From NCBI RefSeq assembly GCF_002752675.1, contig NZ_CP024608.1, positions 1,302,001-1,366,000 of the forward strand: a DNA stretch of 64,000 nt. Direction: 5' to 3'. The notes beneath the pieces are model-generated. The model had not been told where the DNA came from, did not search any database, and was given only the letters and a program-made list of their open reading frames with translations. This DNA is from Massilia violaceinigra (GTDB taxonomy: Bacteria > Pseudomonadota > Gammaproteobacteria > Burkholderiales > Burkholderiaceae_D). The position numbers and the translations under genes are program-made. Shown in pieces: positions 3,666-50,812 of this stretch; position 1 is the stretch's first letter, and each line of letters opens with the position of its first letter.

Positions 3666-3869
3666 TTACTTGCTTGCCTGCGGGGCCGGCTTGGCGGCTT
3701 CCGCGGCGGTCTTGATGTCCTGGGCTGGTGCTTTGACTTCGGCTTTGGTTTCAACCTTTACTTCAGCCTTCGCTACCGGTGCTGCTGGTGCCGGAGCCGG
3801 TGTCGGGGAGTGCGCGAATGCGGCGCTGGCGAACAATCCGACGGTCAGGGTAGCGATTACTTTTTTCAT
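3666..3869 (-). CDS. Small secreted Ala/Pro/Lys-rich protein
   Basis: This 67-residue protein has the signal peptide MKKVIATLTVGLFASAAFA, closely matching the neighbour at 3219-3608. It is followed by an Ala/Pro run and a short repetitive region with alternating Val-Lys-Ala-Glu (KAEVKVETKAEVKAPAQ). It is probably a diverged tandem duplicate. The start has an AAGGACTGACC-type ribosome-binding site just upstream. No function is recognised; the low-complexity mature part suggests an unstructured periplasmic protein. Confidence 0.7.
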   Translation of the reverse strand: MKKVIATLTVGLFASAAFAHSPTPAPAPAAPVAKAEVKVETKAEVKAPAQDIKTAAEAAKPAPQASK

Positions 3870-4116
3870 GGTCAGTCCTTTTTCTGGGTTGAGGTTCGGT
3901 GCACAGTTGCCGTGTCACTGAGCTGAAAACGCCGCCCGAAACCGATGAGTTGACCGCCTTTACACGCGCTTACAACTCGCGCTGTTTGCTTACAACTAGG
4001 CAAGCTGGCGCCGGACAGATCGTGGCAAGCGATTGTGCTGCCACCGGGGCTGTCCGGGATCAAGGGTGACGAGAAGGTAGACTCCTACTATTTGAGTCTT
4101 CAACGAAAGGAACTTC

Positions 4117-12518: not shown

Positions 12519-12594
12519 CGGTGGCCCGGGGCGGAATCGAAGCACCGGCACAAGGATGTTCAACCTTCTGCCCTACCGACTGAGCTACCAGGCC
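12519..12594 (-). pseudogene. Degenerate tRNA-Phe copy
   Basis: The 76 bases align along their whole length with the two intact tRNA-Phe genes at 15296 and 16331. Changes break the structure: an A-C mismatch in the anticodon stem, C instead of a purine at position 37 beside the GAA anticodon, a broken first pair of the T-stem, and CCG instead of CCA at the 3' end. It marks the right edge of the restriction-modification island. No terminator hairpin like those behind the intact copies follows it. Confidence 0.75.
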
Positions 12595-12803
12595 AGGCGC
12601 CGGATTATCCGGCATTTGCTGGTCCCGCTGAAACCATGGCCGCGCGCTTGGCCTTAGCGTAGAAACGTCTGGCATGAGAAATTTGCCCGTCAATTTTATT
12701 GATACTCATCAATATCCAGGCTTTATCCGGGAAACCTGGCTCAGGTTTATAGGAAAGATGCCGCCAATCCTCTCTGGCACTCCCTACTTCCAGAGGATAT
12801 CCC

Positions 12804-14918
12804 TTGCAGAATTTCAACGGTACCTATCACTCGGGCTTGGTTCTGCTCTCCGTTTTCGTCGCCATGATGGCGTCCTACACGGCGATTACCCTGACCGGCC
12901 GCGTGGCTGAAACGCGCGGCCGCGCCAGCGTGCTCTGGCTCGCCGGCGGCGCGCTGGCCATGGGCTGCGGCATCTGGTCCATGCACTTCATCGGCATGCT
13001 GGCCTTCACTCTGCCGATCCGCATGAACTACGACATTGGCGTCACGCTCCAGTCCCTTCTGGTGGCGATCGGCGTTTCCGCATTTGCCCTGTGCGTCGTC
13101 ACCCGTGCCACCGTCAGCAGGGTGCATTACCTGATCGGTGGCGTGCTGATGGGCCTGGGTATTTGCGGCATGCACTATATCGGCATGCATGCCATGTACG
13201 TGTCCCCGGCCATCGCTTACGACCTCGTGGGGGTGGCTGCGTCGGTGCTCATTGCCATCGTGGCCGCCACCGTGGCGCTGTGGCTGGCGTTCACCCTTCG
13301 CGCTGGCAATAGCTTGCTCGCCCACATCAAGAAAGTGGGTGCGGCAGTGATCATGGGGCTTGCCATCGTCCTCATGCATTACACCGGCATGGAGGCGGCA
13401 CGCTTCGATGCCGGCAGCGTCTGCACGTCCATGGGCGGGGTCAACGGCAACTGGCTGGCGGTGCTCGTCGCCGTGGCCGCGTTGTCGCTCATGACGATCG
13501 CCTTGCTGCTGTCGGTGGTCGATTCGCGGCTGGCGGCGCGCACGGCGACCCTGGTCAACTCCCTGCGCCATGCCAACCGGCAGCTGCATCATCTGGCACT
13601 GCACGACGGCCTGACCCGGCTACCCAACCGCAGCCTGCTGGAAGACCGCATTCGCCAGGCCATCCATGGCGCCGAACGCTCGGGCAAGCGCTTCGCGCTG
13701 ATGTTCCTCGATCTCGACCGCTTCAAGACCATCAACGATTCGCTCGGTCATCATTACGGCGACAAGCTGCTGCAGGCGGTGGCGGCGCGGCTGACCCAAT
13801 GCCTGCGCGTCAACGATACGGTGGCACGCCTTGGCGGCGATGAATTCGTGGTGCTGCTGAGCGAGGCCGGCTCGCCGACCGCAGTGGCCGGCGTCGCGCA
13901 GAAAATGCTCGACACCATCGCCATGCCGCTCGACGTGGACGGGCAGATCCAGAGCGTGTCGGCCAGCGTCGGTATCAGCATGTATCCCGACGACGGCACC
14001 AGCCTGCGCGAATTGATGAGCAACGCCGACAGCGCCATGTACCACGCCAAGAAGGTCGGGCGCGCCAACCACCAGTTTTTCGCGCCCGAGATGAATGCCG
14101 CGGCCGGTGCCCGGCTGGCGCTGGAGCACGCGCTGCGCCAGGCGCTGGAAAACCAGGAATTCGAGCTGCACTACCAGCCCAAGGTCGATGTCGCCAGCGG
14201 CGACGTGGTGGCGATGGAAGCGCTGCTGCGCTGGCGCTGCCCGCAGCGCGGCCTGGTGCCGCCCAACGATTTCATCGGCGTGACCGAGGAAATCGGCCTG
14301 ATCATTCCGCTCGGCGCCTGGGTACTGCGCGAGGCTTGCCGCCAGAACCGCGCCTGGCAACTGGCCGGCATGGCGCACCTGCGGATGGCCGTCAACTTGT
14401 CGGCCTGCCAGTTTCGCCAGAAAGACCTGCCGGAGTTCGTGGCCGGCGTGCTCGCTGAAACCGGCATGGAAGCGTCCTGCCTGGAGCTGGAGGTGACCGA
14501 AAGCGTGGTGATGCACAACCCCGCCGAGGCCGCGCAGATCCTCGACCGCCTGCATGCGCAAGGGATCCATATTTCGGTGGACGATTTCGGGACCGGCTAT
14601 TCGAGCCTGAGCTACCTGAAGCAGTTCCGGCTCGATACGCTCAAGATCGACCGTTCCTTTGTGCGCGACATCAGTTCCGACGCCGACGATGCCGCGATCG
14701 TGCGTTCGGTCATCGCGCTGGCCCACAGCCTGCGCCTGCAGGTCATCGCCGAAGGCGTTGAAACCGACGAGCAGCTGGACTACCTACGTGAACTCGGATG
14801 CGACCAGTACCAGGGCTACCTGCGCAGCAAGCCGCTTCCCGCGGCGCAGTTCGAGGCCATGCTGCGTGCAGGCGCCGCCGGCGCAATCGGTCCGGTTCTC
14901 AAAGTGGTGGGCCGCTAA
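12804..14918 (+). CDS. MHYT-sensor diguanylate cyclase/phosphodiesterase (GGDEF-EAL)
   Basis: The 704-residue membrane protein begins with seven predicted membrane segments (residues 1-245) carrying three MHYT-type signatures (MHFIGM, MHYIGM, MHYTGM). This fold is thought to bind copper and sense a gas or redox change. An intact GGDEF domain (RLGGDEFVVLL, near 350) and an EAL domain (MEALLRWR near 470, then DDFGTGYSSL) follow, so it could make and degrade cyclic di-GMP. The start is a TTG at 12804 with AGAGGAT upstream. The gene is monocistronic. Confidence 0.9.
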   Translation: MQNFNGTYHSGLVLLSVFVAMMASYTAITLTGRVAETRGRASVLWLAGGALAMGCGIWSMHFIGMLAFTLPIRMNYDIGVTLQSLLVAIGVSAFALCVVTRATVSRVHYLIGGVLMGLGICGMHYIGMHAMYVSPAIAYDLVGVAASVLIAIVAATVALWLAFTLRAGNSLLAHIKKVGAAVIMGLAIVLMHYTGMEAARFDAGSVCTSMGGVNGNWLAVLVAVAALSLMTIALLLSVVDSRLAARTATLVNSLRHANRQLHHLALHDGLTRLPNRSLLEDRIRQAIHGAERSGKRFALMFLDLDRFKTINDSLGHHYGDKLLQAVAARLTQCLRVNDTVARLGGDEFVVLLSEAGSPTAVAGVAQKMLDTIAMPLDVDGQIQSVSASVGISMYPDDGTSLRELMSNADSAMYHAKKVGRANHQFFAPEMNAAAGARLALEHALRQALENQEFELHYQPKVDVASGDVVAMEALLRWRCPQRGLVPPNDFIGVTEEIGLIIPLGAWVLREACRQNRAWQLAGMAHLRMAVNLSACQFRQKDLPEFVAGVLAETGMEASCLELEVTESVVMHNPAEAAQILDRLHAQGIHISVDDFGTGYSSLSYLKQFRLDTLKIDRSFVRDISSDADDAAIVRSVIALAHSLRLQVIAEGVETDEQLDYLRELGCDQYQGYLRSKPLPAAQFEAMLRAGAAGAIGPVLKVVGR

Positions 14919-15260
14919 TCGCGGCCCGGCTCGGGATCCTCGGGTTGGATAGGGATTTTCATCCTCGCCGTCTCGCCCGTATCGTACCGTGCCCAGAGTG
15001 TCGAGCGCGTGATAAGTAAAAATGCCATCCGACGCCGGCGTGCTGCTTCTTTTCTGTTTCTCACGTAGTCCGTTTCCGAAAGCTGAATAGCTCCGTAAGA
15101 AAAAATGCCCACGGCACGCAGAACAATGCGGGCAACAGCGCCAGGCCCGCGGGAACGCCCGAGCCGGCTGTCGAAAGGATGGCGCGCCGATATCGCCGGC
15201 CGTCATGGACGTCACCGGCAGCCGGAAGCGCCGCCAGGGGGCTAGGGATCCCCGGAAACA
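14919..15260. other. Intergenic stretch without a convincing gene
   Basis: About 340 bases lie between the GGDEF-EAL gene and the tRNA-Phe terminator. Several short minus-strand frames read through it, one ending in a hydrophobic stretch followed by FSFRKRTT. None has both a start with a ribosome-binding site and a recognisable product. It may hold a decayed small membrane-protein gene. Confidence 0.35.
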
Positions 15261-15286
15261 AAAACGCCACCCGAAGGTGGCGTTTT
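15261..15286. terminator. Terminator of tRNA-Phe copy 1
   Basis: AAAACGCCACC, loop CGAA and GGTGGCGTTTT form a perfect symmetrical stem with T-runs both ways, starting 9 bases beyond the CCA end of the tRNA on the minus strand. Confidence 0.85.
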
Positions 15287-15295
15287 ATATATTCT

Positions 15296-15371
15296 TGGTG
15301 GCCCGGGGCGGAATCGAACCACCGACACAAGGATTTTCAATCCTCTGCTCTACCGACTGAGCTACCAGGCC
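15296..15371 (-). tRNA. tRNA-Phe (GAA), copy 1
   Basis: The 76-base cloverleaf is complete. It has a 7-bp acceptor stem with one G-T pair, D-arm AGCTCAGTCGGTAGAGC, anticodon loop TTGAAAA (anticodon GAA), T-loop TTCGATT, and an encoded CCA. A TATTAT -10 lies about 10 bases upstream (15382-15387, minus strand). It is almost identical to the copy at 16331. Confidence 0.96.
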
Positions 15372-15465
15372 AAGGGTCGCTATAATAGCAGCCCCCGGCC
15401 GGTCTGGCTAGTGCGGCGCGTTCGGGAGCACTTTCAGGCCCGCACCGCGCTTCCGATCCTGCCGC

Positions 15466-15921
15466 TTATTTCGGCATCACGACCGTATCGATCACGTGAA
15501 GCACGCCATTGTCGGCGGCAATATCGGTTTTGATCACGTGCGCCTTGTCGAGCATGACCTTGCCGCCTGCCGCAGTCACGGTCAGGTTGCTGCCTTGAAC
15601 CGATTTAACCGCACCCGGTTTCACATCCGCCGCCATGACCTTGCCTGGCACCACGTGATAGGTCAGCACCTTGGTCAGTGCGGCCTTGTCCTTGAGCAGC
15701 GCATCAAGCTTGGCTTTCGGAATTTTTGCGAAGGCTTCGTCGGTCGGCGCGAACACCGTGAACGGGCCCGGGCCTTTCAGGGTGTCGACCAGGCCTGCCG
15801 CCTGAACCGCCGTCACCAGCGTGTTGAAGGTACCTGCCGATTTGGCGGTATCGACAATATCGGCTGCGTTCGCTGCGCCAAATGCCAGGGTAAATGCGGT
15901 TGCGATCAGTACTTTTTTCAT
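15466..15921 (-). CDS. Secreted fasciclin (FAS1) domain protein
   Basis: The 151-residue protein has a signal peptide ([19 protein letters not shown]) and a single FAS1 domain. The two family blocks are [17 protein letters not shown] (about 57-73) and the C-terminal [14 protein letters not shown]. The YHVVPGK motif sits between them. Such small bacterial FAS1 proteins are periplasmic or extracellular and are linked to adhesion or envelope stress. An AAGGAAA ribosome-binding site precedes the ATG. It appears to be a single-gene unit downstream of a tRNA gene. Confidence 0.9.
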
Positions 15922-16296
15922 AGCGATTTCCTTTAGATAAATTAACCACTGCAGGATGCGAAGGCGTCCGGCGGGAAGATATATGCAGGGCGCTCACACA
16001 GGCTGGAAGCGCCACTGCCTCTCTGTTGCACCGTTATTGAACCGGTATGTGCTTAATTGATCGTTGATATCTATTCAAGTCTATCGTGCGCGCCCGGAGA
16101 TTTGACAATAAACGGTTCAGTAGCGGTTCATTTCGCAGGGTTCGCGTGCACGTTATGCGGCCGGATGGCACTGCTTCAGCGCATGAGCGGCCACGCAGCC
16201 TGCGGACAAGAAGAGGAATGGGGGAATGCGCGCTGTTACGCCGTATCGGCGATTTTCAGGCAGGGGGGATAGGAAAAGAATGGCGAGCAGAAATGC
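15922..16296. other. Intergenic region upstream of the fasciclin gene
   Basis: About 375 bases hold the promoter of the fasciclin gene and the terminator region of the second tRNA-Phe. Short overlapping frames on both strands look like noise; no start-site, motif or codon pattern supports a gene. Confidence 0.4.
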
Positions 16297-16318
16297 AAAA
16301 CGCCACCCGAAGGTGGCG
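16297..16318 (-). terminator. Terminator of tRNA-Phe copy 2
   Basis: On the minus strand CGCCACC, TTCG and GGTGGCG are followed by TTTTGCATTT. The hairpin core is the same as behind copy 1 and at 7981. It lies 12 bases beyond the tRNA 3' end. Confidence 0.8.
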
Positions 16319-16330
16319 AAATTGAATTCT

Positions 16331-16406
16331 TGGTGGCCCGGGGCGGAATCGAACCACCGACACAAGGATTTTCAATCCTCTGCTCTACCGACTGAGCTAC
16401 CAGGCC
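16331..16406 (-). tRNA. tRNA-Phe (GAA), copy 2
   Basis: This is a full 76-base tRNA with anticodon GAA, standard D- and T-arms and encoded CCA, essentially the same as the copy 1 kb away. Its own promoter (16417-16445) and terminator show that it is transcribed alone. Confidence 0.96.
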
Positions 16407-42569: not shown

Positions 42570-44180
42570 TTACGATTTGCCGCAAACCTGGTCCCATTCG
42601 AGCGCAAAGCGCGCCAGGAATTTCTTCAGGCGGTCGGCATCGTTCGGTTTGCTTTTGGCGCTGCGCGAGACGGCAAACAGCTTGCGCCCCGCGTCCGACA
42701 AGGTGACCGAATGGCGGCATACCTTGACCACGGCGGCCAGTTGCATGGCGTCGAACAGGTCGAGGCCGGCGGCGGCCTCGTCACCCATCAGTTCTGCCAG
42801 GTTGACCTCGGCCGCGCTTGGGGCGCGCGTGTAGTGGTGCCACAGTTTTTGCAATCTGGCCACTTCGGCGCTGACGATGCTGTCCGAAATGCCGCCGGCT
42901 TCGGCCAGCGTGGCCATCCTTGTCACCGAGGCCGACAGGTCACGGAAGTTGCCGGCCCAGACCGCCTCGGGCGACATCGCGAAGCGCATGTAGCGCTCGC
43001 GCGCTTCCTTGTTGAAGCGCACCATCTGGCCGTACTCCTGGCTGAACTGGTTCAACTGGTAGACCAGGTTGGGTTCGATGTCTTCGGGCCGGTCGACCAG
43101 GCCGGGCAGGGCGTAAGTCCACAAATTGATGCGGGCGTACAAGTCTTCGCGGAAGCTCCCGGCCACCACTTCGCTGGCGAGATCGCGGTTGGTGCCGGCG
43201 ATGAGCTGGAAGTCGCTTTGCACTTCGCTGTCGCTGCCGACCGGATGAAAGCGCTTTTCTTCGATGGCCTTGAGCAGCATTGCCTGTTCATCGGGCCCCA
43301 GTTCGCCGATTTCGTCGAGGAACAGCAAGCCCTTGTGCGCGCTGCGCAGCAAGCCCGGGCGGTCGGCGGCGGCGCCCGTGAAGGAACCTTTGACGTGGCC
43401 GAACAGGGTCGACGCGGCGCCGTCGCCGTGAAGGGTGGCGCAGTTGAGCTCGATGAATTTGCCGTCGAGCTGGTGCCGTGTTTTCTTCAGTTCGTACACG
43501 CGGCGCGCGAGGAACGATTTGCCTGCCCCGGTCGGGCCCATCAGCAGCATGGGTGCGCGCGACTTGATGGCGACGCGCTCGATCTCGTCGATCATGGTGT
43601 TGAAACGGGCGTTGCGGGTGGCGATGCCGGACTTGAGGAAAGCCACGCCTTCGGCTTGCTCGCGCGAAAAGCGCTGGGCGATCTGGTCGTAGCGCGACAG
43701 GTCGAGGTCGATCAGCGCGTAGCTGCCCGGCTCCTTGCTGGACTGGCGCCGCGGCGGCGAGCTTTGCAGCAGGCGGCCGGGGAAGAAGCGCGCTTCGGTC
43801 ATCAGGAACATGCAGATCTGCACGACGTGGGTGCCGGTGGTGATGTGGACCCAGTAATCCTCGTTATCCGGATCGAAGGGGTAGGTCTTGGCGAAGTCGA
43901 ACAGGGCGCCGTAGACCTCGCCGAAATCCCAGGCGTCGCTGATCGGAATGTGGTGCGGCACGACTGTGGTTTCGGGCGAGACGGCGGCGATGTCGGCCGT
44001 GACCGCGTCCACCAGCGGGCCGAATTTGCCGCTGAAGAGCATCTCGAAGCGGTCGACGATGTATTCCTCGTGCTGGGTGATGGCGATGCTGGGACGCCAC
44101 TTTTCCCAGCGGGCCGGGCCTTGGCCGCTGTCGAGCTGGGTGCCGACGAAACCGATGACTACGATGCGTTTCTGTTTCAT
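42570..44180 (-). CDS. rtcR: Sigma-54-dependent activator of RNA-repair genes, RtcR
   Basis: The 536-residue regulator matches RtcR throughout. Its N-terminal CARF-like sensor domain has IVVIGFVGTQLDSG and VHITTGTHVVQI. A linker carries LLQSSPPRRQ. The AAA+ domain has Walker A GPTGAGKSF near 205, GAFTGA-type loop GSFTGA, Walker B LLFLDEIGELG, and NFRDLSASVTRM near the end. Start MKQKRIVVIGFVG was chosen by comparison with RtcR length; the frame to 44387 is longer. It activates the divergent rsr-rtcBA promoter in response to damaged RNA ends or a cyclic ligand. Confidence 0.95.
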   Translation of the reverse strand: MKQKRIVVIGFVGTQLDSGQGPARWEKWRPSIAITQHEEYIVDRFEMLFSGKFGPLVDAVTADIAAVSPETTVVPHHIPISDAWDFGEVYGALFDFAKTYPFDPDNEDYWVHITTGTHVVQICMFLMTEARFFPGRLLQSSPPRRQSSKEPGSYALIDLDLSRYDQIAQRFSREQAEGVAFLKSGIATRNARFNTMIDEIERVAIKSRAPMLLMGPTGAGKSFLARRVYELKKTRHQLDGKFIELNCATLHGDGAASTLFGHVKGSFTGAAADRPGLLRSAHKGLLFLDEIGELGPDEQAMLLKAIEEKRFHPVGSDSEVQSDFQLIAGTNRDLASEVVAGSFREDLYARINLWTYALPGLVDRPEDIEPNLVYQLNQFSQEYGQMVRFNKEARERYMRFAMSPEAVWAGNFRDLSASVTRMATLAEAGGISDSIVSAEVARLQKLWHHYTRAPSAAEVNLAELMGDEAAAGLDLFDAMQLAAVVKVCRHSVTLSDAGRKLFAVSRSAKSKPNDADRLKKFLARFALEWDQVCGKS

Positions 44181-44194
44181 ATTCGTATAAAGTT

Positions 44195-44210
44195 TTATCT
44201 GATCGGATAA
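44195..44210. promoter_or_regulatory. Dyad in the rtcR leader
   Basis: TTATC-N6-GATAA, a 5-bp inverted repeat, stands 15 bases upstream of the rtcR start codon. It may be part of the rtcR promoter or a site for autoregulation. Confidence 0.35.
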
Positions 44211-44320: not shown

Positions 44321-44336
44321 TGGCACAGCATTTGCA
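44321..44336 (+). promoter_or_regulatory. Sigma-54 promoter of the rsr-rtcBA operon
   Basis: TGGCACAGCATTTGCA matches the -24/-12 consensus TGGCAC-N5-TTGCA exactly. It is 39 bases upstream of the rsr start codon and divergent to the activator gene rtcR. Confidence 0.92.
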
Positions 44337-44374: not shown

Positions 44375-45928
44375 ATGGCAAACGCACAGTTGTTCCAGAC
44401 CTTGAAGGGAATCTTTGTCCCTCGTGCCAACGGTCTTAATTCGGAAGGCGCTCCGGCTTACACCATGACGCCGAGGCACCAGCTGGCGCAGTATGCGGCC
44501 ACCGGTTGCCTCAATTCGACGTACTACGTCAATGCGCAATCGCAGCTGGCGACGGTGATGGAGCTGTGCGAAAAGGTCGATACCAGATTCATCGCGCAAA
44601 CGGCGATTTACTGCCGCGAACGTGGTTATATGAAGGATATGCCGGCGCTGCTGACGGCCGTGCTGGCCGCCAAGGGCGCGCCGGAATTGACGCCGGTGTT
44701 TCGCCGGGTCGTCAATAACGGCAAGATGCTGCGCAATGTGGTGCAGATCATCCGCTCCGGCGCGGCCGGCCGTAAATCGCTGGGCACCCGGCCGAAAAAG
44801 CTGGTGCAGCAATGGTTGAACCGCGCTTCGGAAAAAGAGCTGCTGGCGGCGTCGATCGGGAATGCGCCTTCGCTGGGCGATGTGGTGAAGATGGTGCATC
44901 CGAAGCCGTCGCAAGCCTGGCGTGAAGCGTTTTTCGCCTGGTTGATCGGCAAGCCGTTCAATGCGCAGGAGCTGCCGGATGCGCTCAAGGCTTTCGAGGC
45001 TTATAAGGCAGACCAGTCGCAGCCGGTGCCGGAAGTGCCGTTTCAGATGCTGACGTCGCTGACATTGTCGGCGCAGGCGTGGGCGCAGATTGCGCGTCAG
45101 GGCGGCTGGCACATGGTGCGCATGAATCTGAATACGTTCGGACGCAATGGCGTGTACCAGTTGCCCGGCATGATAGAAGTCATCGCCGACAAACTGCGCG
45201 ATCCGGAGGCGATTGCCCGGGCGGGCGTGTTTCCTTATCAGTTGATGTCGGCGTATACGGCGGCATCAAGCGACGTGCCGCGGGCCATCAGCGATGCCTT
45301 GCAGGATGCGCTGGAGCTGTCGCTCGCCAATGTGCCCAAGGTCGAGGGCAAAGTGGTGATCTGCCCGGATGTGTCGGGATCGATGCAGTCGCCGGTGTCG
45401 GGTTTCCGTGGAACGGCTACCTCGACGGTGCGCTGTATCGATGTGGCGGGGCTGATTGCCGCGGCCATGCTGCGCAAGAATCCGGATGCGCTGGTGCTGC
45501 CGTTCGAGAATTATGTGCGGGTGTGCGACTTGAATGCCCGCGATACGGTCATGACCAATGCGCAGAAGCTGGCGGCGATAGGCGGTGGCGGTACCAATTG
45601 CAGTGCGCCTCTGGCGCAGATGAACAAGCAGAAGGTGATGGCCGACCTGGTGGTATACGTGTCCGACAATGAATCGTGGATCGACCAGCGTGCGGGTGCC
45701 ACCGCGACGATGGCGCAATGGGCGGTGTTCAAGGAGCGCAATCCGGCGGCGCGGCTGGTGTGCATCGACTGCACGCCGAACAGTACCAGCCAGGCGGCGG
45801 AGCGTGTCGATGTATTGAATGTGGGTGGTTTTTCGGACGACGTATTCAAGATCATCGCGGCGTTTTCAGCCGGCCAGCTGGGCGCCGGGCACTGGGTGGG
45901 CGAGATCGAATCGATCGCGCTGGAGTAA
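44375..45928 (+). CDS. rsr: Ro60/TROVE-domain RNA-binding protein Rsr
   Basis: The 517-residue protein is the bacterial orthologue of Ro60. The TROVE HEAT-repeat ring covers about residues 15-320. The C-terminal von Willebrand A domain has the MIDAS motif DVSGS (332-336), the Thr in GGGTNCSAPL and the Asp in VSDNESW. Such proteins bind Y RNAs on the ring's outer face and misfolded or single-stranded RNA ends in its hole, and work with exonucleases. The ATG at 44375 has GAGGAAG upstream. It is the first gene of the RtcR-driven operon. Confidence 0.95.
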   Translation: MANAQLFQTLKGIFVPRANGLNSEGAPAYTMTPRHQLAQYAATGCLNSTYYVNAQSQLATVMELCEKVDTRFIAQTAIYCRERGYMKDMPALLTAVLAAKGAPELTPVFRRVVNNGKMLRNVVQIIRSGAAGRKSLGTRPKKLVQQWLNRASEKELLAASIGNAPSLGDVVKMVHPKPSQAWREAFFAWLIGKPFNAQELPDALKAFEAYKADQSQPVPEVPFQMLTSLTLSAQAWAQIARQGGWHMVRMNLNTFGRNGVYQLPGMIEVIADKLRDPEAIARAGVFPYQLMSAYTAASSDVPRAISDALQDALELSLANVPKVEGKVVICPDVSGSMQSPVSGFRGTATSTVRCIDVAGLIAAAMLRKNPDALVLPFENYVRVCDLNARDTVMTNAQKLAAIGGGGTNCSAPLAQMNKQKVMADLVVYVSDNESWIDQRAGATATMAQWAVFKERNPAARLVCIDCTPNSTSQAAERVDVLNVGGFSDDVFKIIAAFSAGQLGAGHWVGEIESIALE

Positions 45929-45948
45929 GGAAAGTTGAAGTACGGGTT

Positions 45949-46028
45949 TTGAGTGCAGCGCGAATGCTGATGCGAATACATTTTCCCATGTTCCATTTCG
46001 CATCGACTCCTTGTCGCGCTGTGCTCAA
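45949..46028 (+). ncRNA. Y-RNA-like hairpin unit A
   Basis: The outer helix has 15 bp (TTGAGTGCAGCGCGA with TCGCGCTGTGCTCAA, two G-U pairs). An internal loop of GAATGC-side and CTCCTTGTC-side bases follows. The inner helix is 8 bp (GATGCGAA/TTCGCATC), then TACAT and a short loop. The asymmetric loop resembles the Ro-binding element of Y RNAs. This unit is 20 bases past the rsr stop. Confidence 0.7.
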
Positions 46029-46037
46029 TCGTTTTAC

Positions 46038-46118
46038 CCCGAATGCAGGCAGGACTACATTCCAGGGTTGCCAGGGCTTCGCGTCCGACAACCAGAAGTC
46101 TTGCCGCTCCTTGTCGGG
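46038..46118 (+). ncRNA. Y-RNA-like hairpin unit A-prime
   Basis: The outer helix is CCCGA/TCGGG, again enclosing ATGC opposite CTCCTTG. The inner helix is 9 bp (GGCAGGACT/AGTCTTGCC, one G-U), followed by ACAT and a 35-base loop with GGTTG/CAACC. It has the same modules as unit A but a shorter outer stem and a bigger loop. Confidence 0.7.
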
Positions 46119-46135
46119 AATTTGTTGTACAGGTT

Positions 46136-46216
46136 TTGAGTGCAGTGCGAATGCTTGATGCGAATACATCTTCCAAAATTTACTTCGCATCGGATTTTTT
46201 GTCGCATTGTGCTCAA
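46136..46216 (+). ncRNA. Y-RNA-like hairpin unit B
   Basis: This is a near-copy of unit A, 187 bases downstream. In the 15-bp outer helix a C-G pair of unit A has become U-A (both strands changed), and a G-C pair has become G-U. The inner helix GATGCGAA/TTCGCATC is the same. The compensated change supports a real RNA structure. Confidence 0.75.
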
Positions 46217-46225
46217 TCGTTTTAC

Positions 46226-46304
46226 CCCGAATGCGGGCAAGGACTACATCGATGTTGTGCTTTGGCGTTATGCCGGCAACAAGTGTCCTGCCGATCTTGT
46301 CGGG
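46226..46304 (+). ncRNA. Y-RNA-like hairpin unit B-prime
   Basis: This is the second copy of unit A-prime, 188 bases downstream. CCCGA/TCGGG encloses ATGC opposite GATCTTG, then GGCA(A)GGAC/GTCCTGCC with one bulged A, then TACAT and a loop with an inner GGC/GCC hairpin. Confidence 0.7.
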
Positions 46305-46315
46305 AATTATTTTAG

Positions 46316-46422
46316 GGCGAATGCTGTCCGGATTACATTGTGTCCCCGGTTCGAGTCCGGGCGGTTGCGCGAGTGGCTGTAGCTCAGTTGGTTAGAGTAA
46401 ATGTCCGGGCGATATTGTCGCC
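46316..46422 (+). ncRNA. Y-RNA-like unit C with tRNA-like module
   Basis: GGCGA/TCGCC encloses ATGC opposite GATATTG. The inner helix is GTCCGGA/TCCGGGC, then TTACAT. The large loop holds a tRNA-like T-arm (CCCGG, TTCGAGT, CCGGG; 46345-46361) and a D-arm-like GCTC/GAGT (46382-46398). T-arm before D-arm is the reverse of tRNA order. Such modules in bacterial Y RNAs (YrlA) mimic tRNA. Confidence 0.7.
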
Positions 46423-46433
46423 ACCCTTGTTTC

Positions 46434-46544
46434 GATGAATGCAGATGAAATTACATTGGAAGAGCGCTGAAGCGTGCTTCAGCTAAACCCGGTTCGACTC
46501 CGGTCGGTCTTGTGCCTGGCTCACATTTCATCACCTTTGTCATC
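46434..46544 (+). ncRNA. Y-RNA-like unit D with T-arm
   Basis: GATGA/TCATC encloses ATGC opposite ACCTTTG. The inner helix GATGAAAT/ATTTCATC has 8 perfect bp, then TACATT. The loop contains a 7-bp hairpin (GCTGAAG/CTTCAGC) and a T-arm-like CCGG TTCGACT CCGG (46489-46503). A TTTTT follows at 46547, 20 bases before rtcB, and may serve as terminator. Confidence 0.7.
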
Positions 46545-46566
46545 ACTTTTTATACTGAGAAAAATT

Positions 46567-47802
46567 ATGAAAAACGAAAATTACGATGTCCTGAACGTGG
46601 AAGATGGCCGCCATGTCAAAATGTGGACCAAAGGCGTGCCGGTGGAAGAAGTGGCCAAGAAGCAGCTGACCAATACCGCCAAGATGCCCTTCATTTACAA
46701 GCATATTGCGGTCATGCCGGACGTGCACTTAGGTAAAGGTTCGACCATCGGTAGCGTGATCCCGACGCTCGGGGCGGTGATCCCGGCGGCGGTTGGCGTG
46801 GATATCGGTTGCGGAATGATGGCGGCCAAGACCACCCTGACGGCGAACGACCTGCCGGATAACCTGTCCGCGCTGCGTAGCGCCATCGAGCGCGCGATTC
46901 CGCACGGTATGTCGCCGAAAACGCGCGGCTTCCGTGGCCGCGATGAAGGCTCGTGGAATACGCCGCCAGCGGCTGTGGATGTCGCCTGGGGCCAGTTGAA
47001 GGATGAATTCGACGCTATCTGCCTGAAAACGCCGAAGCTGAAAACCACGAATAACTACCGTCACCTCGGTACCCTGGGTAGCGGTAACCACTTCGTTGAA
47101 GTGTGTCTGGACGAGGTAGGTTTCGTATGGTTCATGCTGCATTCGGGTTCGCGCGGCGTGGGAAATGCCATCGGTACCCACTTCATCGAGCTGGCCAAGA
47201 AGGATATGCGCACCCACTTCATCAACCTGCCCGATCAGGACCTGGCGTATCTGGCCGAAGGTACGCAGCACTATAACGACTATATCCAGGCGGTCAGCTG
47301 GGCGCAGAAGTTTGCGCGCACCAATCGCGATGTGATGATGCAGAACCTGATCGCGGCGGTACGTACGGTGATCACCAAGCCGTTCGAGACGCACGTGGAA
47401 GCGGTGAACTGCCACCATAATTATGTGCAGAAGGAGCATCACTTCGGTAAAGATGTGCTGATTACCCGTAAGGGCGCCGTGTCGGCCCGTCCGGGCGAGC
47501 TGGGAATCATCCCGGGGTCGATGGGGGCGAAGAGCTTCATCGTGCGCGGAAAAGGTAATCCGGACAGCTTCAACAGCTGCAGCCACGGTGCCGGCCGCAC
47601 CATGAGCCGTACGGAGGCGAAGCGCCGCTATACGCTCGATGACCAGATCAAGGCCACCGAGGGCGTGGAATGCCGCAAGGATGCCAATGTGATTGACGAG
47701 ATTCCGATGGCGTACAAGGATATCGACGCGGTCATGCATGCCCAGCGTGACTTGGTGGAGGTTGTCCATATCCTCAAGCAGGTGGTGTGCGTCAAAGGTT
47801 GA
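46567..47802 (+). CDS. rtcB: RNA 3'-phosphate ligase RtcB
   Basis: The 411-residue ligase joins 2',3'-cyclic phosphate or 3'-phosphate RNA ends to 5'-OH ends using GTP and Mn2+. The metal-binding Cys is in VGVDIGCGMMA (Cys82), preceded by PDVHLGKGST. NHFVE, HHNYVQKEHHFG and the GMP-accepting His in SCSHGAGRTMSR are all present. It matches E. coli RtcB closely in length and sequence. The ATG at 46567 was preferred to a start at 46474, which lies in the RNA region. Confidence 0.97.
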   Translation: MKNENYDVLNVEDGRHVKMWTKGVPVEEVAKKQLTNTAKMPFIYKHIAVMPDVHLGKGSTIGSVIPTLGAVIPAAVGVDIGCGMMAAKTTLTANDLPDNLSALRSAIERAIPHGMSPKTRGFRGRDEGSWNTPPAAVDVAWGQLKDEFDAICLKTPKLKTTNNYRHLGTLGSGNHFVEVCLDEVGFVWFMLHSGSRGVGNAIGTHFIELAKKDMRTHFINLPDQDLAYLAEGTQHYNDYIQAVSWAQKFARTNRDVMMQNLIAAVRTVITKPFETHVEAVNCHHNYVQKEHHFGKDVLITRKGAVSARPGELGIIPGSMGAKSFIVRGKGNPDSFNSCSHGAGRTMSRTEAKRRYTLDDQIKATEGVECRKDANVIDEIPMAYKDIDAVMHAQRDLVEVVHILKQVVCVKG

Positions 47803-47855: not shown

Positions 47856-48878
47856 ATGATTGAATTAGATGGCGCCGTCGGCGAAGGCGGCGGACAAATC
47901 CTGCGCAGCGCGCTGACCTTGTCCATGATTACCGGGCAGGCGTTTTGCATCAAGAATATCCGGGCCGGGCGCAAGAAGCCCGGGTTGCTGCGCCAGCATC
48001 TGGTCGCGGTGCAGGCGGCCACGCAGATCAGCGGCGCAACCGTCACCGGGGCGGAACTGGGTTCGCAGACGCTGGTCTTCGCGCCCAAGGCGATCAAGGG
48101 CGGCGATTATCAGTTCGCGATCGGTTCGGCCGGTAGCTGCACGCTGGTGTTGCAGACGGTGATGCTGGCATTGCTGCATGCGGACGGCCCGTCGACGGTG
48201 CGTATCAGCGGCGGCACCCATAATCCGATGGCGCCGCCGGCGCAGTTCCTGCAACGCGCTTATATTCCTTTGCTGCGCAAGATGGGCGCCGATATCGATA
48301 TCGAGCTGCTGCGCTCGGGTTTTTATCCGGCCGGCGGCGGCTGCATTGTGGCGACAATCGCACCGTGCCCCCAATTGCAGCAGTTGACGCTGATGGAGCG
48401 CGGCGAGCGCGTCGAGGGGTATGCCGAAGGGATCGTGGCAGGCTTGCCCGCGTCGATTGCATTGCGCGAACTGGAATGCGTCGGCCTGGGAATGAACTGG
48501 ACCGGCGATCAGCTGCGCATGCGTGGATTGCCGGGCGAGCAGGGGCCGGGGAATGCTTTGCTGATCACCCTTGAATACGAGCATGCGACCGAGGTGTTTT
48601 GCGCTTTTGGTGAAAAAATGGTTCGGGCCGAAACCGTCGCCAAGGACGCCATGCACGAAGCGCGCCGCTACATAGCCTCCCAGGCGGCAGTGGGCGAGCA
48701 CCTGGCGGACCAGCTGATGCTGCCGATGGCGCTGGCTGGAGGCGGCAGTTTCACGGCGGACGTGCTCTCGCAGCATGCCATCACCAATGCGGAAATCATC
48801 GGCCGTTTTCTGCCTGTGGCGATCACGCTGGAAGAGGGCGAACAGCGCAGTACCTGTACCGTTCGTGCGACGGCGTGA
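47856..48878 (+). CDS. rtcA: RNA 3'-terminal phosphate cyclase RtcA
   Basis: The 340-residue enzyme converts 3'-phosphate RNA ends to 2',3'-cyclic phosphate through an AMP-His intermediate. Signatures are EGGGQILRSALTLSMITGQAF, KPGLLRQHL and GSAGSCTLVLQTV. The adenylated His is in SQHAITN (near residue 307). It lies 53 bases downstream of rtcB and completes the RtcR regulon. The ATG at 47856 has a GAAGAAGAG site upstream. Confidence 0.96.
   Translation: MIELDGAVGEGGGQILRSALTLSMITGQAFCIKNIRAGRKKPGLLRQHLVAVQAATQISGATVTGAELGSQTLVFAPKAIKGGDYQFAIGSAGSCTLVLQTVMLALLHADGPSTVRISGGTHNPMAPPAQFLQRAYIPLLRKMGADIDIELLRSGFYPAGGGCIVATIAPCPQLQQLTLMERGERVEGYAEGIVAGLPASIALRELECVGLGMNWTGDQLRMRGLPGEQGPGNALLITLEYEHATEVFCAFGEKMVRAETVAKDAMHEARRYIASQAAVGEHLADQLMLPMALAGGGSFTADVLSQHAITNAEIIGRFLPVAITLEEGEQRSTCTVRATA

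Positions 48879-49278: not shown

Positions 49279-50812
<1,534 letters not shown>

Follow-up and report, generated by a model that had tools for sequence, protein, structure and literature searches.

The gap between rsr and rtcB in the analysed window (the whole 64-kb stretch of DNA) holds six consecutive Y-RNA-like units, which combine a constant handle motif with divergent heads. As read from the sequences, the heads recur in a similar order across related loci and include two circular permutations of tRNA. The units are not of one kind: their heads differ, and unit 6 is assigned to a class (class D) that lies outside the known YrlA fold. The interpretation that we prefer, with a probability of about 0.55, is that the array would supply six Y RNAs with a constant handle, excised within U-rich linkers and held by Rsr, whose heads may be offered to RNA-processing partners.

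Organization of the rsr-rtcBA region

The gene order in the window (Table 1) was found to be rtcR on the minus strand, a sigma54 site, rsr, the six hairpins, rtcB and rtcA. The rsr stop codon occupies 45926-45928 and rtcB starts at 46567. The rsr product scored 20.1 bits with TROVE, below the cut-off of 23; it matched the Rsr structure 2nvo (E 2e-28) and displayed 97% identity to the Rsr of Massilia frigida. The Ro60 (rsr) gene is adjacent to the six units, as expected of bacterial Y RNA. The motif TGGCACNNNNNTTGCW had a single exact match in the 64-kb window, and at least one match was obtained in 8 of 100 shuffles. A looser sigma54 pattern was present near rsr in 79 of the 91 relatives with sufficient upstream sequence (raw count). 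On the 3' side of rtcA, a 16S rRNA gene starts near 49283 (by eye), followed by tRNA-Ile and tRNA-Ala.

Table 1. Features of the rsr-rtcBA region, in window coordinates
Feature	Position	Strand	Basis
rtcR, CARF-domain sigma54 activator	42570..44198	-	Pfam RtcR PF06956, 270 bits, and Sigma54_activat; start codon taken at 44198
Sigma54-type promoter TGGCACAGCATTTGCA, 5' of rsr	44321..44336	+	Motif match, predicted
rsr, bacterial Ro60 protein	44375..45928	+	vWA_Ro60 PF25045, 66 bits; start taken at ATG 44375
Y unit 1, class B, long outer stem, plain head	45949..46028	+	Rfam YrlB 38.2 bits (cut-off 97); z -5.68
Y unit 2, class C, CCCCGA handle, bent non-tRNA head	46038..46118	+	Handle kept in 15/15 class C units
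Y unit 3, class B, copy of unit 1	46136..46216	+	Rfam YrlB 41.9 bits (cut-off 97); z -3.88
Y unit 4, class C, copy of unit 2	46226..46304	+	Alignment A7; z -1.72
Y unit 5, YrlA type (T arm, acceptor hairpin, D arm)	46316..46422	+	Rfam YrlA 57.3 bits
Y unit 6, class D, predicted tRNA opened in the D loop	46434..46544	+	R1 91.1 bits (training member)
rtcB, RNA ligase	46567..47802	+	Pfam RtcB 441 bits
rtcA, RNA 3'-phosphate cyclase	47856..48878	+	Pfam RTC 260 bits

Motif and folds of the six units

Six copies of GAATGC occur in the rsr-rtcB gap, and each forms a handle by pairing with a TTGTC further downstream. Counting both motifs, the stretch from GAATGC through TTGTC is 54, 75, 55, 73, 101 and 105 bases long in units 1 to 6, respectively. 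The unit scanner detected six units; 1000 dinucleotide shuffles gave 0.031 units on average and never more than one. This bears out the earlier note, which had described six hairpins between rsr and rtcB sharing a GAATGC/TTGTC internal loop, a loop present in all of them. In the rest of the 64-kb window one further plus-strand unit was found (3816-3911), and the minus strand contained none. Two other origins of the pattern were considered: chance or a repeat artefact was ruled out by the shuffles, and gap-crossing reading frames look unlikely because gap lengths differ among close relatives.

All six units contain an outer stem, the GAAUGC/UUGUC internal loop and an inner stem. Unit limits were taken from the scanner, which requires outer-stem pairing, and outer-stem statistics, being selected, were not used as evidence. 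The TACAT reported to follow the inner stem was present in 6/6 units. The stem itself, put earlier at 7-9 bp, came close to that range (longest uninterrupted stems of 9, 9, 10, 5, 9 and 8 pairs in units 1 to 6), and the C noted before GAA was kept in five units and replaced by T in unit 6.

When each unit was folded alone, z values of -5.68, -2.11, -3.88, -1.72, -2.17 and -1.06 were obtained for units 1 to 6. Units 1 and 3 were far stabler than shuffles, and units 2, 4 and 5 modestly so; unit 6 was hardly better than its shuffles, 27 of 200 of which did as well. As their lone folds are not sufficient to establish units 4 and 6, the case for these two rests on their relatives. The array can be written (B C)(B C) A D, in which a module of 187-188 bases is duplicated, so that unit 3 corresponds to unit 1 and unit 4 to unit 2; repeats D2, D3 and D5, spaced 187-188 bases apart, identify unit 3 as the copy of unit 1.

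None of the six units reached any Rfam cut-off. Unit 5 matched YrlA over its full length (E 1.5e-11; cut-off 69), unit 6 scored 20.3 bits with the same model (E 0.78), and units 2 and 4 had no Rfam match. Besides unit 5, the YrlA model matched four times with lower scores (32-33 bits), in two further places of the 7.53 Mb genome to which the window belongs, and matches below the cut-off were found in 7 of 14 control genomes. The sub-threshold YrlA and YrlB matches, the rsr-rtcBA-rtcR setting and the covarying stems in relatives together support the Y-RNA-like identity that had been proposed for the array.

Census of related loci

In order to place the array among its relatives, the rsr-rtcB gap was surveyed. 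The rsr search matched 48 of 294 genomes of the family, and loci were obtained from 47, the remaining genome (G106) being left out with a 38-residue rsr match containing a stop. Both rsr and rtcB were present in 46 of these family loci, the window's own genome included. GAATGC was found 2 to 14 times per gap (two copies in 13 loci, three in 12, four in 8, five in 3, six in 4, seven in 1, nine in 2, ten in 2 and fourteen in 1), counts that include a few stray copies, for instance within reading frames of L098 and L102. At least six copies were present in 10/46 loci, and the scanner, which gave 0 to 13 units, likewise found at least six in 10/46. In a second set of 59 named loci, 57 of which have rtcB, the GAATGC count ranged from 1 to 8. 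Six units in a row had been called unusual; the number does lie above the middle of the family, and it is no record.

The arrays of the closest Massilia genomes contain four (L013), five (L008 and L009), six (the window, L006 and L067) or seven units (L007), so that six GAATGC copies are ordinary for this clade. Apparently, either the two-unit module or unit 6 was gained or lost where these arrays differ. The largest count belongs to L100 (genome G001), whose 1661-base gap has 14 GAATGC copies. Small plain hairpins there largely alternate with large units, several of which carry T arms that differ in sequence.

Constant handles and variable heads

For comparison of heads, 107 loci were reduced to 95 non-duplicate ones (11 duplicates and one locus lacking a gap were dropped, 12 in all). 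L028 and L038, both among the 95, lack rtcB and were scanned over up to 2700 bases. The scanner found 276 units in total.

Within seven genomes of the window's clade, handle motif identity was 1.00 among the 15 units of class C and the 14 of class B, as measured over the first ten and last nine columns in class C and over GAATGC plus TTGTC in class B. Mean head identity was 0.53 in class C, the class of unit 2, and head identity was 0.48 in class B. RNAalifold recovered the outer and inner stems of both classes, with two double-change pairs each in this close clade.

The classifier assigned 135 of the 276 heads as plain or other, 48 as T arm only, 73 as T then D arm (the YrlA type) and 20 as class D, defined by a D strand before the T arm; the last figure is an under-count, as model R1 (see below) finds more. 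Many loci show the same succession of heads (plain, T-only, YrlA-type, class D), with exceptions that include L100, L028 and L061. Some arrays of two or three units have no T arm according to the classifier (e.g. L079, L087 and L084), and tRNA-like heads are therefore not universal. At the T-only position, an alignment of 12 chosen units showed a T arm adjoining a 7-bp acceptor-like hairpin, with 96.0% of cells paired and double changes in 10 of 25 pairs; the L094 row fitted poorly. In the window, neither unit 2 nor unit 4 has a T arm or tRNA-like head, in contrast to the matching position in other genera.

Class D and the two tRNA permutations

Class D comprises 33 distinct aligned rows. A first alignment (A1) was made of 16 rows selected by the pattern GAGC, T loop, GCTC from 17 distinct sequences (L083, a near copy of L082, was left out); because the pattern demands them, the D stem and the T loop of A1 are in part a product of the selection. 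The 5' half runs through outer stem, inner stem, the 3' strand of the D stem (mostly GGTAGAGC) and an anticodon-like arm, and the 3' half through the T arm, an acceptor mini-hairpin, the 5' strand of the D stem (mostly TAGCTCAG) and the inner and outer stems. In A1, 93.7% of cells were paired, and 18 of 34 pairs showed double changes, compared with 8.8 in shuffles.

Model R1, built from A1, was searched against 94 sources (duplicates and L067 were left out) and matched 34 units with at least 88 bits, 15 of them training members. A second alignment (A2) of 18 rows combined L074 with 17 new rows from the 19 non-training units, L076 and L083 being omitted as near copies. It reached 98.2% paired cells and double changes in 20 of 34 pairs, values that lean towards R1 since R1 selected the rows. 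The RNAalifold prediction on A2 was unprompted and returned the same six helices. The covariation score was 0.398, against 0.188 for shuffled rows and a best value of 0.122 when the structure was slid. In L017 and L026 the D stem changes from GAGC/GCUC to GCGC/GCGC. Covariation across related genomes, which the earlier note had expected of genuine Y RNAs, was thus found, strong in class D and slight in classes B and C.

A GG precedes the D-stem strand in 33/33 distinct class D rows, which we take to be positions 18 and 19 of the tRNA D loop. In tRNA these two bases make the elbow contact. Because the GG stands ahead of the strand in every row, the opening is placed just before it, and class D is predicted to be a circularly permuted tRNA with the break in the D loop and an equivalent for each of the four arms. 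By eye, the anticodon-like arm mostly has a short loop in place of the seven-base anticodon loop, and the acceptor is capped by a short loop as well.

Window unit 6 gave no tRNA-like shape when folded alone. It was found at E 1.5e-6 by the A2 profile, which holds no row of its clade, and is best described as a drifted member of class D. When 250 genomes of the order were searched with R1, matches occurred in 133 and exceeded 60 bits in only three: the window's own genome, G324 (82.1) and G460 (66.9).

Two further models were built from nine real tRNAs, rotated either at the D loop (R2) or at the anticodon (R3), some of which come from searched sources (the window and L017). R2 matched 33 of the 34 class D units, 32 of them at 31.7-50.8 bits and window unit 6 at 16.8 bits (E 0.13); off the class, R2 gave up to 44 bits on YrlA heads and up to 70 bits on neighbouring real tRNA genes. 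The class D unit of L006 was matched by neither model at E up to 1, and that of the close relative L067 scored 14.7 bits with R2. R3 reached at most 34.2 bits on class D units and stayed below R2 in all 33 that R2 matched. Unit 5 showed the opposite preference (R3 49.5 bits, R2 42.0 bits), as did the other YrlA-type units compared (for example, 58.3 and 40.1 bits in L100, 57.9 and 40.4 bits in L025). This double dissociation of the models indicates that class D and YrlA-type heads are two permutations of tRNA. The head order of unit 5 (T arm, acceptor hairpin, D arm) was recovered by the YrlA alignment and the A9 consensus structure as well as by R3, and the unit is predicted to be a YrlA-type tRNA opened at the anticodon stem.

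The possibility that unit 6 is a degenerate YrlA was considered and, for class D, ruled out by arm order, A1 and A2, RNAalifold, and R2 and R3. Unit 6 does not follow the head order of YrlA, the order in its class differs, and R2 exceeded R3 in 33/34 units. Of 14 class D units scanned with the Rfam 15 YrlA model, nine scored 20.3-33.5 bits and five gave no match at the thresholds used. ARAGORN recognized 0/17 class D heads unrotated and 2/17 rotated; it is a poor test of such heads because it expects a normal anticodon loop. The class D head of L017 passed the Rfam tRNA cut-off (31.7 vs 29 bits).

Class II heads were found in seven loci, namely L054-L057 (alphaproteobacterial), L037 (Methylibium), and L041 and L046 (proteobacterial MAGs). 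They run through GGTAGACGC, an anticodon-like arm, a variable arm, the T arm, the acceptor hairpin and TGGCG, and appear to be opened at the same site as class D. Their D-arm sequence is, in our estimation, like that of tRNA-Leu, and ARAGORN calls the L037 head tRNA-Leu. With the Rfam YrlA model, the L054 class II unit scored 35.0 bits and class I relatives up to 33.5. ARAGORN calls inside Y units were located at L050:2058-2191 (tRNA-Gly) and L037:6075-6212 (tRNA-Leu); such heads may therefore carry tRNA-gene annotation in databases.

Other observations near rsr loci

Genes for tRNA were also called close to several arrays. According to ARAGORN, they lie between the Y array and rtcB, in operon direction, in L054:6316-7016 (seven), L055:6272-6707 (five), L056:6272-6435 (two) and L057:6393-6993 (seven). 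They comprise Gln, Arg, Leu, His, Asn, Pro and Tyr, as if spare tRNAs were kept in the repair operon. Arrays of tRNA genes 5' of rsr, in the same direction, were found in L017:293-1501 (8), L026:509-1499 (10) and L046:4-1560 (14). At least two tRNA genes near rsr were found in these seven of the 59 named loci. Elsewhere in the window, on the minus strand (12520-16406), three tRNA-Phe(GAA) calls fall within 4 kb, of which the one read letter by letter, 12520-12594, looks irregular.

A Y unit that carries AACGGTCCTAAG close to its start and GGCCGT close to its end was observed in the related genomes L098, L102, L103 and L109 (gap offsets of about 1071, 1068, 1074 and 1262). We take these to be both strands of 23S helix 69, their order exchanged. 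Exact matching of this unit to rRNA extended over at most 16 bases, in L103, a length reached in 1 of 200 shuffles; a permuted head that mimics rRNA is possible. The matches listed from a BLAST of rsr-rtcB gaps against the window rRNA were mostly noise. Among the Y units in the gaps of L075, L098, L103 and L109 there is also a conserved ORF of 124-125 aa. It contains two CxxC pairs and, by eye, resembles a zinc ribbon; L102 has a similar one.

Proposed mechanism and alternative explanations

In the mechanism that we favor, the RtcR/sigma54 promoter would produce one operon RNA upon tRNA damage, and a single-strand-specific endonuclease such as RNase E would cut it in the U-rich linkers. The GAATGC/TTGTC handle is, by analogy, the likely Rsr-binding site, and the excised Y RNAs would be protected by Rsr. 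The heads could then act as exchangeable tethers, two of them tRNA-like (units 5 and 6). As the side on which the tRNA body is attached to the handle is not the same in these two, the face that Rsr presents would differ between them. Different tRNA-recognizing enzymes (PNPase, RtcB, tRNA-modifying enzymes) might in this way be tethered to one type of ring, conceivably during repair or decay of broken tRNAs. More broadly, and with slightly less than even confidence, such arrays may be adaptor libraries of 2-14 heads, graded from plain through half tRNA (T arm and acceptor) to whole tRNA, with the D-loop-opened class in both build types.

The best-placed alternative, in our view unlikely, is that the six joined hairpins form one long RNA, a multi-site scaffold gathering several Rsr rings. 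The units lie close together (median linker 12 bases over 164 linkers) and in a single direction. Three promoter-like sites were found on both strands of the scanned region (1.4 expected); the sole plus-strand site, at 46537-46565, lies at the array end, with none before it. Terminator-like sites are at chance level (three, 3.1 expected), two of them within units. The lone folds of units 1-5 recur in the fold of the whole region, that of unit 6 being absent there. Against a scaffold, TTT occurs within 8 bases 5' of the stem in 55% of the 276 units, versus 9% of 8-mers drawn at random from these gaps, as expected of cleavage sites. Copy number also ranges from 2 to 14, and YrlA is described in the literature found as a 90-150 base RNA (PMC8394870). 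The linkers contain 38% T versus 23% overall, and such U-rich linkers would favor separate RNAs over one long RNA.

A somewhat more doubtful possibility is that the heads are tRNA decoys, competing for tRNA-attacking nucleases or toxins while RtcBA carries out repair, their diversity reflecting an arms race. Fast head divergence over a constant handle motif and the copy numbers of 4 to 7 among close relatives would fit such a race. In addition, the Salmonella operon is described as induced by tRNA fragments, and the tRNA-like domain of YrlA has been suggested as a competitive nuclease inhibitor (PMC7790460). However, 135/276 heads have no T arm according to the classifier. The anticodon-like and acceptor loops of class D are, by eye, short, which would leave anticodon nucleases and CCA-dependent enzymes without their usual target and makes a role as substrate decoy for anticodon nucleases less likely.

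It is improbable that the array reflects neutral tandem duplication, with one or two functional units (unit 5) and the rest drifting copies. Units 1-4 are indeed a duplicated module, and the tRNA likeness of unit 6 is partly lost in the window's clade. Yet GAATGC and TTGTC stayed constant in the 29 class B and C copies of seven genomes despite head divergence, class D and T-only heads retain their pairing through double changes, and the order of head types recurs. Least probable of all is a cis-acting element of the rsr-rtcBA messenger setting RtcB output or stability through Rsr binding: the position between rsr and rtcB, the gap that the census covered, would make the hairpins part of the messenger, and plus-strand promoter-like sites are missing ahead of the array end, but such an element has no need of detailed tRNA-like heads with covarying arms and sits poorly with the wide variation in unit number and order.

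Comparison with known systems

The layout of the window operon is that of the Salmonella RNA-repair operon, for which activation of RtcR by tRNA fragments and the presence of rsr and yrlBA inside the operon are described (PMC7790460). Units 1 and 3 share with YrlB (RF02565) a long outer stem, an internal loop and a plain head; they differ from it in scoring far below its cut-off and in being duplicated. Unit 5 has in common with YrlA (RF02553) the handle, inner stem, T arm, acceptor-like hairpin, D arm and rsr-rtcB position, and differs in falling below the cut-off (57.3 vs 69 bits). YrlA is reported to resemble the D, T and acceptor arms of tRNA (PMC8394870). Class D differs from it in arm order and in having an anticodon-like arm, which YrlA lacks. 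Compared with tRNA (RF00005), class D heads share the D, anticodon-like, T and acceptor-like arms; they are opened in the D loop, with a short acceptor loop, no CCA end and, mostly, no normal anticodon loop.

The titles and abstract openings found name no anticodon-bearing or D-loop-opened Y RNA head and no large array, and multi-copy arrays may have been mentioned earlier; within this literature the class of unit 6 is an unreported Y RNA class. The handles of YrlA and of the Deinococcus Y RNA are described as binding Rsr (PMC8394870, PMC4726728). With the Deinococcus RYPER, formed by Y RNA, Rsr and PNPase, the window operon shares an Rsr homologue, a Y RNA stem that would hold Rsr, and the proposed tether model. 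The difference is that RYPER uses a single tether RNA and the window has several units with unlike heads (PMC8394870, PMC4726728). Natural Y RNA sets that join one handle to different heads offer a direct experiment on which enzyme each head brings. If the proposed mechanism is true, one Rsr ring could dock tRNA enzymes from two faces, holding the class D body from another side than YrlA, and the D-loop-opened mimic, compared with the anticodon-opened one, would tell which tRNA faces need to stay free.
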